Part shown: positions 28,766 through 37,940 of the stretch, one piece after another
Numbering within the stretch: the stretch's first letter is position 1
How the letters are laid out: each line of letters begins with the position of its first letter
Assembly (NCBI GenBank): GCA_023246005.1
Contig: JAHFJG010000010.1
Coordinates: 1 to 45,707, forward strand
DNA length: 45,707 bases
Origin: Candidatus Doudnabacteria bacterium
GTDB taxonomy: Bacteria > Patescibacteriota > Doudnabacteria > UBA920 > O2-02-FULL-48-8
Direction of reading: 5' to 3'
The notes under the pieces: model-generated
Told to the model about the DNA's origin: nothing
Database searches by the model: none
Seen by the model: only the letters and a program-made list of their open reading frames with translations
Made by a program: the position numbers and the translations under genes

Positions 28766-29287
28766 TTACTTAGATATCGTCCATTCCAAAATAGTCTTGA
28801 GTTTGTTTTCAATTGTTGAACAGATGTTCTTTATAGTCGTTTGATGAACGCTGAAACTTCCATTTCCTGCTGGGTCTTTAATATCCTTATGGTTTTTTGT
28901 TATTTCCGAAAAAATATGTATTTTATTTTTCGCTTTAGGGAATTGGTTTAGTAAAGCATTTTTAGCTGTAGAAAACACTTTTTTGTCCATAGCAATAATT
29001 ACTGCCGTTTTTTTGATTACTGCAGGAGTTATTTTTTGGTAAAAGTGGTCAGTTAGATCAATCCTGAATTTCCGTAAAGTCGGCGATGCTGCTTTCCACT
29101 CTTTTCTATATTCAGTTAAATTTGTGTGTCTTGGTTTAGCAATGCCCATTGTTCCCTGTAAACCATACGATGCTACAGAAAATTTATTATCCAGATGATT
29201 TCTTTCCAAAACTTGAGAAAGATATTTTTCTGCAACCACAGAACGATGGATATTGCCATTACACACAAAAACAATCAATTTTTTCAT
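28766..29287 (-). CDS. Low-molecular-weight protein-tyrosine-phosphatase-like protein
   Basis: FVCNGNIHRSVVAEKYL P-loop (CxGNxxRS) and DPAG downstream. Confidence 0.75.
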   Translation of the reverse strand: MKKLIVFVCNGNIHRSVVAEKYLSQVLERNHLDNKFSVASYGLQGTMGIAKPRHTNLTEYRKEWKAASPTLRKFRIDLTDHFYQKITPAVIKKTAVIIAMDKKVFSTAKNALLNQFPKAKNKIHIFSEITKNHKDIKDPAGNGSFSVHQTTIKNICSTIENKLKTILEWTISK

Positions 29288-29352: not shown

Positions 29353-31818
29353 CTACGGCAATATCTCAACAATCCCTTTCGGCCCGTTCACTCGCACCCT
29401 CATCCCTGTTTTGAGAATTTGAGTGGCACGTTGGACGTTGAGAACTGCCGCAATGTTCATTTCCCGAGCGTAAATTGCCCCGTGAGCCAGAAGGCCGCCA
29501 ACCTCTGTGATCAGCCCTCCCTCTGCACCAAGAATTACTAGAACTGGCGACCAGGCAGGATCAGTTGTGATTGTAACCAGCACCTTGCCTTGGCAAAGTT
29601 GCAAGATTGGCTCGCTGTCCGTGAGGTTTCTGACAACCACCACTTCGCCTTCAGTTATTGCGTTGGTTACACCAATTCCCCTGAGCACATCGGAGTTGGC
29701 AGAGGTATATTTGCCGATTTCTTCTAACTGGTCGGCAAACATAATTGGTGGCACTTCTACCTTCCTTTCCTGTTTACTTTTCTTGCTCCTTTCCGTGGCC
29801 AGCTTTCGCATTTCGTCTTCGTTTTCGCAAAGACGAAATACTTCCTCTGGGTTGAGGTGAAAAATCAACCCGTCTGGCCACTGAAGCCGTTGCTCCATTT
29901 GTACTGCCAGTTGTCGCAACAGGGCGTATCCCTTGAGGAAATGAAACTTCACAGCTTCCCGCAAAGGCAGGTAGGTCCGAACCGCCCTAACTTCACGGCA
30001 AAGGTTAGAGCTTTCGCTCCCAACTCTGGCCGCAAGGTCTCTCAGCAGTTCTTCGACTTTCGCTTGAGCGTCGGCGTAGTCGGGTTCTAACAACCCAAGC
30101 TTCTCGGACAACTCGACTAAGAGTTGCGGCTGGTCGTGGTATCTTGGAGTTGAAATTTCCAGCTCGTGGCTCGCAAGATGACCATATCGGACAAGAACGG
30201 TGTCGAGAGTTACCTGTCCTTGTCTGAATAGCCTCAAGTCAGCGTTGAACTGAAGATTGGGGTTATCTTCGGGTGACACACCTCCTGTGAGAACGTTAAG
30301 ATAGCCCTCACCATCCTCTCCAAAAAGTTCACGCAACAAGTTACGCAAACGAGTGAAGGAGAAGAAGCCAAGCCGAGTGACCTTGACGAACAACAGGCAA
30401 GCTTGGGTGCGAAGCAGTTCACAGGCTTCAAAGTAACGTCTTTGAAGCTCGCAGATGTTACTCGAGGCCTCATTAGCTAAGTGAGAGATGTTACTATCCC
30501 ACTCGGCCAACGCAACTTGGGATTCCTTCTGCAGCGTATCTTCCAAACCACGAATTGAAGTAAAGAATTGATGATAAGCCAGAGCATATTGCTTTGCTCT
30601 TGCTGTCCCAAAAATCTTTGCTAAAAACTCGGGATCAGGATTTTGCTGATACAATTGCACTTCTGGATAATTACCCAGTGATGGATTTTCCTTGATACTG
30701 CTCAAGTAATAATCCACCAATCTGCAATAATCATCCAAAGGAACGCCCTTGATGCGATAGGTGAAGGCATCGTGAACGATACTGCACCTTGGTTGCCCAG
30801 CGACTAACTGAAAGAATCCAGTTTCTAACTCTTCGCCAATATCGTAGCCCATTTGGTTGCGAGCAGTTCTAATTGCACCCTGCCCGTGAGCAAAACAATA
30901 AGTGAAGAGGCCGAAACTCATCTGGGTTGGATGTGGAGTAAGTAGTTCACTGACGTTCTGATCACTCAGAGCATCAGGTAGTGTTGAACAGCCCAACCTC
31001 TCCAGTCTGATTTCTTCGTTTCGCAAGTCACTTCTCACTGAAGCGATAACTTCCTGAACCACGGAAGTCTTCCCGTTAGTTGTGATGTTGCGAGACTGGT
31101 TGAGATAAAGTAGTCCTGTTTCTTGTTCAATCGCCCATTCGATGTCTTGCCCCGTTCCAAAGAAATCACGTAGTTTTCGACCAACCGAGACAAGCTCGCA
31201 AAGCTGATGAGACGAAAGCGAAGGAGTAAGTGCCCCTTCTTCACTTAGCAATTCACCAGTGGTCGCATCCACGTAGTAACGCTTGGGTTCAGTTTGTCCT
31301 GATACCAAGCCTTCGGCAACGCCTGCAACGACTTCTATGACCATTGCTTTGTCATCTTGGGTTACAGGATGATGGGTGAACAACACACCAGCCACTTCGG
31401 CCGGCACCATTTCTTGCAAGATCAAGGCCAGTTGGTCTGAATTGACCCCGTGTAGTCCAGCATAGGTCTTTACGGCCTCGCTATTCAATGCTGCGGCACA
31501 ATCCAAGATAGCTGGTTCAAGTTCCTCTTGGTTTACGAATAACCTGCTCTTGAACTGCCCTGCCCAAGACAAGGCTCCGTCTTCACCGACAGCCGAACTA
31601 CGGACTGCGAGACCTGATTTGAAATCCAGATTGTCGTGAGTCGCTTTCAGCAGTTCCGAAGCAACCAAACCATCGGCGAGTATCGCTAAAACTTCGTCCG
31701 AACTGAGAATGATGGCTTCTTTTACCAGTAGCCCAAGGGACTGTATTTGGGCTAACCTGAAAGCCTTGCATCCAACGATTGTTTCGCCAAGGCTAAGAGC
31801 CTCAAGTAATTTACGCAT
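29353..31818 (-). CDS. PEP-synthase/rifampicin-phosphotransferase-like dikinase (821 aa)
   Basis: PPDK N-terminal ATP-grasp (LAVRSSAVGEDGALSWAGQF, QEMVPAEVAGVLFTHHP) and swivelling His domain EVGGLLAHGAIYARE; no C-terminal PEP-binding barrel; SD gaggagg. Confidence 0.8.
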   Translation of the reverse strand: MRKLLEALSLGETIVGCKAFRLAQIQSLGLLVKEAIILSSDEVLAILADGLVASELLKATHDNLDFKSGLAVRSSAVGEDGALSWAGQFKSRLFVNQEELEPAILDCAAALNSEAVKTYAGLHGVNSDQLALILQEMVPAEVAGVLFTHHPVTQDDKAMVIEVVAGVAEGLVSGQTEPKRYYVDATTGELLSEEGALTPSLSSHQLCELVSVGRKLRDFFGTGQDIEWAIEQETGLLYLNQSRNITTNGKTSVVQEVIASVRSDLRNEEIRLERLGCSTLPDALSDQNVSELLTPHPTQMSFGLFTYCFAHGQGAIRTARNQMGYDIGEELETGFFQLVAGQPRCSIVHDAFTYRIKGVPLDDYCRLVDYYLSSIKENPSLGNYPEVQLYQQNPDPEFLAKIFGTARAKQYALAYHQFFTSIRGLEDTLQKESQVALAEWDSNISHLANEASSNICELQRRYFEACELLRTQACLLFVKVTRLGFFSFTRLRNLLRELFGEDGEGYLNVLTGGVSPEDNPNLQFNADLRLFRQGQVTLDTVLVRYGHLASHELEISTPRYHDQPQLLVELSEKLGLLEPDYADAQAKVEELLRDLAARVGSESSNLCREVRAVRTYLPLREAVKFHFLKGYALLRQLAVQMEQRLQWPDGLIFHLNPEEVFRLCENEDEMRKLATERSKKSKQERKVEVPPIMFADQLEEIGKYTSANSDVLRGIGVTNAITEGEVVVVRNLTDSEPILQLCQGKVLVTITTDPAWSPVLVILGAEGGLITEVGGLLAHGAIYAREMNIAAVLNVQRATQILKTGMRVRVNGPKGIVEILP

Positions 31819-31913
31819 CGGTTTTCCTCCTCAAAGATGGAAAGTTGCAGCACAGAACAGATATGTTTTGTGCTCGTGTCTAACAATCTACGATTGCTAA
31901 TCACCAAAACAAA

Positions 31914-31998
31914 ACACCTTCCGCAAAATCCAGAAGGTGTCTCGTTTCTTATGAGTTAAGACAAACCTAACATTGGACTTTGCATAAAAGCAAAGCCC
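31914..31998 (-). ncRNA. Structured leader element A (hairpin + terminator-like hairpin)
   Basis: Minus: GGGCTTTGC-TTTTAT-GCAAAGTCC ... ACACCTTC-[TGGATTTTGCG]-GAAGGTGTTTTGTTTT, upstream of the dikinase gene. Confidence 0.65.
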
Positions 31999-32037
31999 GC
32001 CATCCGAAGCTATTTGATTGTTTTAATGTAAGGTAAT

Positions 32038-32730
32038 TCATATAGAGGTTATCTTTTTAACAGTAGCATCAAGTAAGATTTTCATTGTATCGTAGATTTG
32101 GAAATTGTCTTGCTTGGGTATTAGTAACTGCAAATCTGTGCAAGCCAGAATGATATTTTTAACCTTCTTTTTTCCGAAGTCCTGTATTATCTTTAAGAGC
32201 AGATCCCTATCTTTATTATCGTAACGATTTGATGTAATGTTAAGGATCAACTTGCCGATTTTAGCCTGTTGTAAACTGTCTGGAACAAGCGTGGCTATGC
32301 CGCTTGCTTTTAACAGTTTTTCATATAACTTATTTTTCGTTGTGATTGGTGTGGCAATAATACCGACTTTATTTATTTTTTGTTGTTTAAGAAATTTGGT
32401 AGTTTCTTCCAAAATGCTTAAGACGGGTATCTTCACTGCTTGCCTTATATCGTTGATAAACTTATGTAATGAATTGCAGGGCAATACCACAAAATCAGCT
32501 CCTGCTTTTTCCAAGTTCCTTGCTGCCGCTAAAAGTTGCGGCAAAATTCTTTCTTCTCCAATGCCGTCTACAATAGCATCCTTTTCAATATCAAACCTCA
32601 AAGGAATGCTGTTAATCAGAATGGGCGGATAGCTGGTTTTATCTATTTGTCTACACGAGAAAATTAGCTCTAAATAAAATTCAGAGGTTGTTTCAGGCCC
32701 AAGCCCACCAATTATTCCTACAGTTTTCAT
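32038..32730 (-). CDS. Aspartate/glutamate racemase family protein
   Basis: KTVGIIGGLGPETTSEFY, catalytic LPCNSLH and LACTDLQ. Confidence 0.9.
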   Translation of the reverse strand: MKTVGIIGGLGPETTSEFYLELIFSCRQIDKTSYPPILINSIPLRFDIEKDAIVDGIGEERILPQLLAAARNLEKAGADFVVLPCNSLHKFINDIRQAVKIPVLSILEETTKFLKQQKINKVGIIATPITTKNKLYEKLLKASGIATLVPDSLQQAKIGKLILNITSNRYDNKDRDLLLKIIQDFGKKKVKNIILACTDLQLLIPKQDNFQIYDTMKILLDATVKKITSI

Positions 32731-32759
32731 AATGATTATTAGTTAATTATAAACAAAAA

Positions 32760-32841
32760 ACACCTTCGCAAAGTCCTAAGGTGTCGTGAATGTTAGTCTA
32801 TTCTATAACACAAACTAGGGACTTTGCTTATTGCAAGCCCC
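32760..32841 (-). ncRNA. Structured leader element B, homologous to element A
   Basis: Minus: GGGGCTTGC-AATAA-GCAAAGTCCC ... ACACCTT-[AGGACTTTGCG]-AAGGTGTTTTTTG. Confidence 0.68.
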
Positions 32842-32887
32842 AGCTCCAGATATTCAATGTTATAGACTCATTTTTCATATTGGTTAT

Positions 32888-32916
32888 ATATTACCCCTTT
32901 TTACGGAAACTGTCAA
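32888..32916 (-). promoter_or_regulatory. Sigma70-type promoter upstream of element B
   Basis: Minus: TTGACA - 17 nt - TAATAT. Confidence 0.7.
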
Positions 32917-33557: not shown

Positions 33558-34628
33558 ATGCCAGAACTACAACCCGTTGTAGAAAAACCAAAATTATTAA
33601 AAACTGACACAAGGCAATGGACATCAGGGAGAGTCAAATTTGCCGTGATCGGTTGGGTTGGTAAACCAGATCGTAATTATATCGTTTTGGAAAAGAATTT
33701 CTTTGGGAAATCTCGAAATCCGGATCAAAAGTTCAATTTACGAGAGTCTGATTGGGTCAATCTAAAAAAGTTAATTGATGGAGATTTGATAAAAGCAACT
33801 GAATGGCTCCCCACCGTTCAAATAATTGATCAGAAAAGTTTAGATGAATTTTTGAAGCAAAATCCGGATGCGTTAGAGAAAATTCTAGCGAGTCCTGATA
33901 TTCTAAAACTAAACGAGCAAAGTATTGAAAGTTTGAACAAATTGGTTGTTAAACTTTTCGAAATAAAAAAAGACCAAGCAGAAGTTATACTGAAACAATT
34001 AACGGCCGCATCGAAACAGGATTTAGAGTTATTTTCTAAATTATTAGAGGATTTGCGATTGAACCAAATTTCTACCTTAGCATCTTTGATTTATCAAAAA
34101 TTAAAAGTTATCGACTTACTTGAAACTGTTTGTATGGATTCAAGTCGGAGCGAGAGAGATGTGCATAAAATTTTTGAATCAAACACATGGCTTTTAGGTA
34201 AGCAGTTTGAAATTTTACAGAGCGATAAACCTTTATCTCAATATTTTGAGACGAATGTTAAGGAAGACCCCGAGACACGAAAAAGGCCGGATCTTATCCT
34301 AAAGCAACTTCCTTTCAGCAATGATATTGTTTTAGTTGAATTTAAAGCTCCAGGTATTAAGTTAAAGGCTAAACATATTGGGCAGGTTTTGGAGTATAAG
34401 GCTTTGATTCAACAAAATAAGCCCAATGTTAGCAATATCCACTGTTTTGTCTATGGCTACGAAAAAGACCACACTTTTACAAAATCAAATGATGTTGTTT
34501 TGAAGACATTTTCGGAAATCATTGCAGAATTAAGATCGGAATTCAACGAATACGAAAAATTACTTAATGAGAGCCAACAGGATATTGGAATTTTAGAGCA
34601 ACTAGACGACTCTGACATTCCATTCTAA
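33558..34628 (+). CDS. DUF4263/Shedu-like putative nuclease protein
   Basis: C-terminal SERDVHKIFESNTWLLG...RPDLILKQLPFSNDIVLVEFKAPG...KHIGQVLEYKALI: PD-(D/E)XK-like Shedu core. Confidence 0.65.
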   Translation: MPELQPVVEKPKLLKTDTRQWTSGRVKFAVIGWVGKPDRNYIVLEKNFFGKSRNPDQKFNLRESDWVNLKKLIDGDLIKATEWLPTVQIIDQKSLDEFLKQNPDALEKILASPDILKLNEQSIESLNKLVVKLFEIKKDQAEVILKQLTAASKQDLELFSKLLEDLRLNQISTLASLIYQKLKVIDLLETVCMDSSRSERDVHKIFESNTWLLGKQFEILQSDKPLSQYFETNVKEDPETRKRPDLILKQLPFSNDIVLVEFKAPGIKLKAKHIGQVLEYKALIQQNKPNVSNIHCFVYGYEKDHTFTKSNDVVLKTFSEIIAELRSEFNEYEKLLNESQQDIGILEQLDDSDIPF

Positions 34629-37546: not shown

Positions 37547-37552
37547 TTGCTG

Positions 37553-37940
37553 CCTAAGTAAGCTGTAAGCCGAATTCTGTCTGTTCCGCCGAAGAGACGG
37601 AGAGGCAATCATCTATCTAGGCCAAACATTGCTGTTTGGCTCAAGCTGTCAACCCGCTCTCAAGGAGCCTATTTGACATTGCACTAAAAAGTAGGAATTT
37701 AGCCGTTTCACCTCTGGCATTACTGCCGGAGCTCGCCCTGAACCATTCGCTTGTGCTTCAGGTTCAGGGCGGTTTTGCGATCTCTCACAAAACCGTTTCT
37801 GTTCGCATCCCGAGGATTACTCCCGACGGGCGTTACCCGCTACTTTTGGTTGCATGAACTCATGAGAATTCCATTCAACCCACGTGTTCGGACTTTCCTC
37901 CCTCATTTTGCAATGAAGGCGATCGCCGCACTTGCTTAGG
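37553..37940 (-). ncRNA. rnpB: RNase P RNA (bacterial class A)
   Basis: Minus: CCUAAGCAAG...GAGGGAGGAAAGUCCG at the 5' end and ACAGAAUUCGGCUUACAG...CUUAGG at the 3' end. Confidence 0.93.

Follow-up and report, generated by a model that had tools for sequence, protein, structure and literature searches.

The window analysed here, a stretch of 45,707 nucleotides from a Candidatus Doudnabacteria contig, carries on its minus strand a gene cluster comprising an amino-acid racemase, a PEP-synthase/Rph-like protein and a low-molecular-weight (LMW) phosphatase, in which the racemase and the PEP-synthase-like gene are each preceded by a structured leader. The preliminary description had placed these leaders on the minus strand at 31998-31914 (copy A) and 32841-32760 (copy B), where both are indeed present. 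The two structures are explained by short leader-peptide ORFs, absent from that description, and the functional elements consequently begin upstream of the range it gave, A from 32041 and B from 32878. Along the minus strand, the features are the following:

32888-32916, minus strand: promoter of leader B, with TTGACA at 32916-32911, 17 bases and TAATAT at 32893-32888
32828-32878, minus strand: leader peptide ORF B, MKNESITLNIWSWGLQ, with Trp codons at 32848-32846 and 32842-32840 and the stop codon at 32830-32828
32818-32841, minus strand: hairpin 1 of B (regions 1 and 2), with arms at about 32841-32833 and 32827-32818, region 2 being GCAAAGTCC at 32827-32819
32754-32784, minus strand: terminator of B, with its hairpin at 32784-32760 (ACACCTT at 32784-32778, AAGGTGT at 32766-32760) and a U tract to about 32754
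32768-32776, minus strand: region 3 of B, GGACTTTGC, inside the terminator of B
32038-32730, minus strand: amino-acid (Asp/Glu-type) racemase gene behind leader B
31967-32041, minus strand: leader peptide ORF A, MNYLTLKQSNSFGWRALLLCKVQC, with a single Trp codon at 32002-32000
31975-31998, minus strand: hairpin 1 of A, with arms at 31998-31990 and 31983-31975, region 2 being GCAAAGTCC at 31983-31975
31910-31940, minus strand: terminator of A, with its hairpin at 31940-31914 (ACACCTTC at 31940-31933, GAAGGTGT at 31921-31914) and a U tract
31923-31931, minus strand: region 3 of A, GGATTTTGC, inside the terminator of A
29353-31818, minus strand: PEP-synthase/Rph-like protein behind leader A, with PPDK_N and PEP-utilizers mobile domains
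28766-29287, minus strand: LMW phosphatase family protein, the last gene of the cluster

Elsewhere in the window, the plus-strand ORF at 33558-34628 gives a weak, below cut-off match to the Shedu SduA C-terminal domain (Pfam PF14082), and a bacterial class A RNase P RNA (Rfam RF00010) lies at 37551-37938 on the minus strand. Right after the terminator of A, a second inverted repeat (31850-31913; GTTTTGGYG ... CRCC-AGCG-CAAAAC) is found, which also occurs at loci L007, L008, L009 and L010; following several terminators, it would stand at the front of the read-through mRNA.

The pattern of the leader peptides was first visible in the leader of another genome of the same order (G034), whose peptide is MKIIRRQLNSWWRALFIRKVRS followed by a stop codon. 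In this leader, as in A and B, hairpin 1 has Trp codons exactly at its 5' foot; copy A contains one, B two (WxW), and the further homologues described below have WW, WxW or WWW, while the peptide sequence outside the Trp region varies widely among the leaders. The promoter claimed for B in the preliminary description is confirmed, the string TTGAC-N18-TANNNT-N9-ATG occurring once in the window against 0.02 expected. In both B and G034 a TTGACA-N17-TARTAT promoter is followed, 6-9 nt past the -10 box, by the ATG of the leader ORF, so that the leader mRNA would be leaderless or nearly so, and for B the predicted start of transcription is at most about 3 nt away from this ATG. A clear promoter of its own was looked for at copy A and none is evident; here the leader ATG overlaps the stop codon of the racemase (ATGA), which suggests translational coupling and two attenuators in series.

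The homology of A and B to each other, proposed on first reading, holds and extends to leaders elsewhere, found by covariance-model search. The two copies share GCAAAGTCC-N33-GACACCTT with the same spacing, and the 673-kb assembly has no further match. The complementarity between the terminator loop and the 3' arm of hairpin 1 is equally real: GGAYTTTGC pairs with GCAAAGTCC, the best duplex in A and B also extends into the terminator's 5' arm, and its energy is better than that of dinucleotide shuffles (A, p=0.010; B, p=0.006).

A covariance model (R1) extending from hairpin 1 to the U tract, with the upstream peptide excluded, was searched against 50 genomes of the same order. The model alignments were padded with N, since MAFFT alignments broke the terminator arms. 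Beyond the training sequences, matches at E<1e-3 were obtained in G001, G046, G019 and G035; in every one of them tandem Trp codons accompany a promoter and an ATG, the peptides reading AAWNWALL, AAWRWTLA, QVWWQALR and LVWWQALC, respectively. The Trp idea has its cleanest test in these matches, found with a model that lacks the peptide. R1 does reach, in its first columns, the second Trp codon of G001 and G046, as it does that of B; it contains neither their first Trp codon nor the ATG or the promoter. Weaker R1 matches (G029, AWWVG; G044, TWWTA) and matches of a second model, R2 (G047, TWRWD; G049, AWWALP; G298, NWWWT), were retained since structure and peptide both fit; R2 includes the Trp-codon columns, so its members are not independent evidence. 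A scan of loci fetched via the racemase or TrpR added L138, L154, L155 and L165, L161 being doubtful. In total 17 leaders were compiled, several of them accepted partly for having Trp codons; many carry a sigma70-like promoter from which transcription would begin on or close to the leader ATG. An intrinsic terminator, hairpin plus U tract, stands upstream of the structural gene in A, in B and in the homologues. Weak model matches across the order and the phylum (E above about 1e-3) were rejected, being mostly plain terminators without a Trp ORF. The pattern CTAGT-ATG...TGGTGG gave, in 389 genomes, nothing convincing beyond the known leaders of G029, G043 and G044, and a scan for codon-pair enrichment was too noisy as stand-alone evidence. 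In the phylum scan about 10 candidates were scored per genome, and the spread is thus a lower bound. All sequences derive from metagenome assemblies, and all of the evidence is computational.

In the covariation alignment (A8), hand-trimmed in a way that favours pairing (bulges dropped, unpaired spacers turned into A), 96% of the cells of hairpin 1 and the terminator are paired across 12 members, and 11 of 17 pairs have changed on both sides, with 0 of 500 shuffles as good and all slid registers worse. Regions 2 and 3 are paired in 92% of cells in the same 12 members, against at most 47% in slid registers; their variation is mostly one-sided (G-U) and, by pair type, barely above shuffles; support for 2:3 comes more from complementarity and the slid-register control than from double changes. 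Across the 17 members, the antiterminator duplex that the RNA following the Trp codon forms with the terminator arm plus loop beats shuffles (Fisher p=7e-11), and the best duplexes mostly begin 13-19 nt from the start of the last Trp codon, just past the expected edge of the ribosome. In most members these duplexes take in part of the terminator 5' arm, which makes the pairings mutually exclusive, and three alternative helices (1:2, 2:3 and 3:4), with exclusive use of region 2, are found.

The folding was then computed with the ribosome footprint masked, the first free base being 12 nt after the start of the A-site codon. With the ribosome stalled at Trp and the nascent RNA extended to region 3, the antiterminator forms in both A (-19.6 kcal/mol) and B (-19.0 kcal/mol), and the nascent stalled energies are better than those of shuffles (Fisher p=9e-19). 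When the stall site is moved, pairing of region 3 is strongest with the last Trp codon in the A site, give or take about one codon, and drops on both sides. Placing the ribosome on the stop codon restores the terminator in all 17 leaders; in these folds region 2 is free when the ribosome occupies the regulatory codons and not when it has reached the stop codon. For the full leader of B stalled at Trp, the antiterminator (-20.2) beats the terminator; for the full leader of A at equilibrium, the terminator is favoured even with a stalled ribosome. The antiterminator is outright favoured over the terminator at the Trp codon in just 7 of the 17 leaders, and the others would, by this model, need kinetic help. 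Copy A, with one Trp codon and a terminator favoured at equilibrium, is the weaker case in these calculations, and its response to Trp may be weak.

The genes behind and beside the leaders include several of clear tryptophan function. In G047, also a Candidatus Doudnabacteria, an orthologue of the window racemase (79% identity) lies between a Trp leader and trpS; in G035 the leader is followed by a SerK-like gene and a TrpB-like enzyme, in G019 by a 104-aa ORF and DAHP synthase, and in L154 (Nomurabacteria) by TrpE and then the racemase. The order in L155 is TrpS, TrpR, leader, short ORF, racemase, and that in L165 is TrpR, leader, PEP-synthase-like gene, LMW phosphatase, with the racemase divergent; here the PEP-synthase-like protein is a homologue of window 29353-31818 (25% identity, nearly full length) and the phosphatase, in the same position, of window 28766-29287 (62% identity). 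The pair of PEP-synthase/Rph-like and LMW-phosphatase genes thus recurs behind a Trp leader, with the racemase nearby, in a distant Patescibacterium, as a conserved module. For other leaders, among them those of G001, G034 and G298, the genes that follow show no clear connection to Trp. TrpS was not found in the window genome, an assembly about 80% complete. The window racemase and PEP-synthase-like genes are putatively tied to tryptophan, by orthology and gene order only. Racemases about 42-79% identical to that of the window (L153-L208) are widespread in Patescibacteria and also present in records that bear a DPANN archaea label, a distribution suggesting either horizontal spread or binning error.

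TrpR-family genes adjoin the leaders in G034, G035, G019, G029 and G044, as well as in L138, L154, L155 and L165; the window genome has a single TrpR-family gene, located elsewhere. CTAG palindromes, such as GTACTAGTAC, stand at the leader start near TrpR-family genes in L012, L034, L138, L154, L155 and L165; those at several of the leader promoters resemble TrpR operators and may be repressor sites. In addition, a perfect 28-nt palindrome, GGTATTAGCATACTAGTATGCTAATACC, without a convincing Trp leader, was observed at L257 (G029:C58, about 2899-2933) as a possible repressor site.

We consider it very probable that each leader is a tryptophan-responsive, ribosome-mediated transcription attenuator of the trp type; the computed basis comprises the leader ORFs, the Trp codons, the covarying helices, the stall-dependent folding and the Trp-related neighbourhoods of the homologues. 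At B, RNA polymerase would start at or next to the leader ATG, with a ribosome following the polymerase. When charged tRNA-Trp is scarce, the ribosome would stall on the Trp codon or codons at the foot of hairpin 1, covering region 1, so that region 2 (GCAAAGTCC) would pair with region 3, that is the terminator loop and part of its 5' arm; the terminator would then fail and the downstream genes would be transcribed. When Trp is plentiful, the ribosome would reach the stop codon and cover or pass region 2, the terminator would form and transcription would end after about 125-130 nt. Ribosome stalling, efficient termination by the polymerase and the direction of the response are what we infer from this model. 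Leader B would control the racemase and leader A the PEP-synthase-like and phosphatase genes; since A follows the racemase directly and no promoter of its own is evident, serial action of the two is probable.

The preliminary description had raised the possibility of a new attenuator or riboregulator family. The analysis supports its idea of an attenuator whose one arm can pair with either of two mutually exclusive partners: homologues were found by covariance model, pairing is kept with compensatory changes, and Rfam gives no match in the leaders (4227 models, Rfam 15, no family at the gathering threshold or at E up to 5). It supports neither a new riboregulator family nor a ligand-binding RNA, the sensor being best explained by ribosomes that read the Trp codons in translation, as long known from trp-type attenuation. 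A metabolite-binding riboswitch or another ribosome-independent attenuator, with a ligand or protein deciding which of hairpin 1 and the antiterminator forms, would account for a structured leader with exclusive pairings and for the missing Rfam match, and Rfam attenuator, T-box and riboswitch families gave no match in 15 homologous loci either (one tRNA only). We nevertheless judge it very improbable, for no sequence resembling a ligand pocket is conserved, both the spacer and hairpin 1 vary from homologue to homologue, while the ORF with Trp codons persists at a fixed place and the neighbours are Trp genes. It is just as hard to believe that these are plain terminators, a repeated sequence of which A would end the racemase transcript and B an upstream one: each copy does end in a strong hairpin and U tract, and A lies directly behind the racemase stop codon, but B, with its own promoter just before it, would terminate an RNA of 125 nt, and the conserved hairpin 1, the 2:3 pairing and the leader peptides would be left unexplained.

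The rifamycin-associated element is a conserved 19-bp palindrome before rifampicin-response genes, and the preliminary description had suggested comparing hairpin 1 with it; on such a reading hairpin 1 would induce the Rph-like gene upon rifamycin exposure. The left half of hairpin 1 of B may resemble this element, which in Actinobacteria is situated some 20 bp past a promoter start (PMC10719064; see also PMC12802891), and the protein behind A is distantly Rph-like; the better resemblance (B), however, precedes the racemase and not the Rph-like gene, the palindrome is not retained in homologues such as L155 and L165, and the protein behind A scores 214 bits against a 999-bit Rph cut-off. Among homologues, moreover, the sequence of hairpin 1 varies while Trp codons and pairing stay, and the nearby genes of clear function are tryptophan genes; the link is not supported, and we hold its probability to be close to nil. 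An action in trans of the terminated 125-nt RNA and/or the peptide, besides or instead of attenuation, is unlikely, with somewhat more in its favour: promoter and terminator would yield a discrete short RNA, and rnTrpL and peTrpL of Sinorhizobium meliloti offer a precedent (PMC7298713), but the peptides diverge outside the Trp region and the gene neighbourhoods in cis already account for the leaders.

What the leaders most probably represent is thus a new case, in Patescibacteria, of a known mechanism, tryptophan attenuation by the ribosome, and not a new riboswitch; the new biology is in the genes predicted to be regulated, the amino-acid racemase on the one hand and the module of PEP-synthase-like protein and LMW phosphatase on the other, which had not previously been linked to tryptophan. 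In the literature covered, to which most subscription papers do not belong, no report of amino-acid attenuation in Patescibacteria was found. If the reading is true, these reduced and largely uncultured bacteria sense their own Trp supply and, with TrpR-family genes beside the leaders, the sensing may be two-layered; genes behind Trp leaders would be predicted to be important under Trp shortage, which offers a handle on their function. A broader proposal, possible and offered tentatively, is that a two-layer Trp regulon, made of a TrpR-family repressor and a leaderless attenuator, is common to Patescibacteria and includes an unrecognised pathway, whose racemase, LMW phosphatase and PEP-synthase/Rph-like enzyme would be switched on by a lack of Trp and would support Trp acquisition or salvage, or protection from Trp analogues, in cells dependent on others for amino acids.

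In the textbook case, the attenuator of the Escherichia coli trp operon (trpL), control depends on ribosome stalling on the Trp codons of a leader peptide, and the TrpR repressor is a second layer. The leaders described here, in ultra-small and mostly uncultured bacteria, share with trpL a leader peptide with tandem Trp codons, the 1:2, 2:3 and 3:4 pairings and a U-tract terminator, and in several homologues a TrpR-family gene adjoins the leader. Unlike in E. coli, the terminator loop holds most of region 3 and the 5' arm only a part, the leader mRNA would be leaderless or nearly so, the genes regulated are not a full trp operon and no Rfam model matches. The S. meliloti trpLE(G) attenuator (rnTrpL, peTrpL), in which the transcript begins at the ATG of a leader ORF with consecutive Trp codons (PMC7298713), is similar in its transcript start and Trp codons; it belongs to an alphaproteobacterium, precedes trpE(G) and has known trans activities. 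Actinobacterial trp attenuators, finally, combine leader peptides with double or triple UGG codons and terminator/antiterminator structures, some of them before Streptomyces trpS (PMC1262725), as the G047 leader stands upstream of trpS. They are GC-rich, have a conserved complementary triple of their own and come from another phylum, and those reported in that work do not precede racemase or PEP-synthase-like genes, which is where leaders B and A stand.
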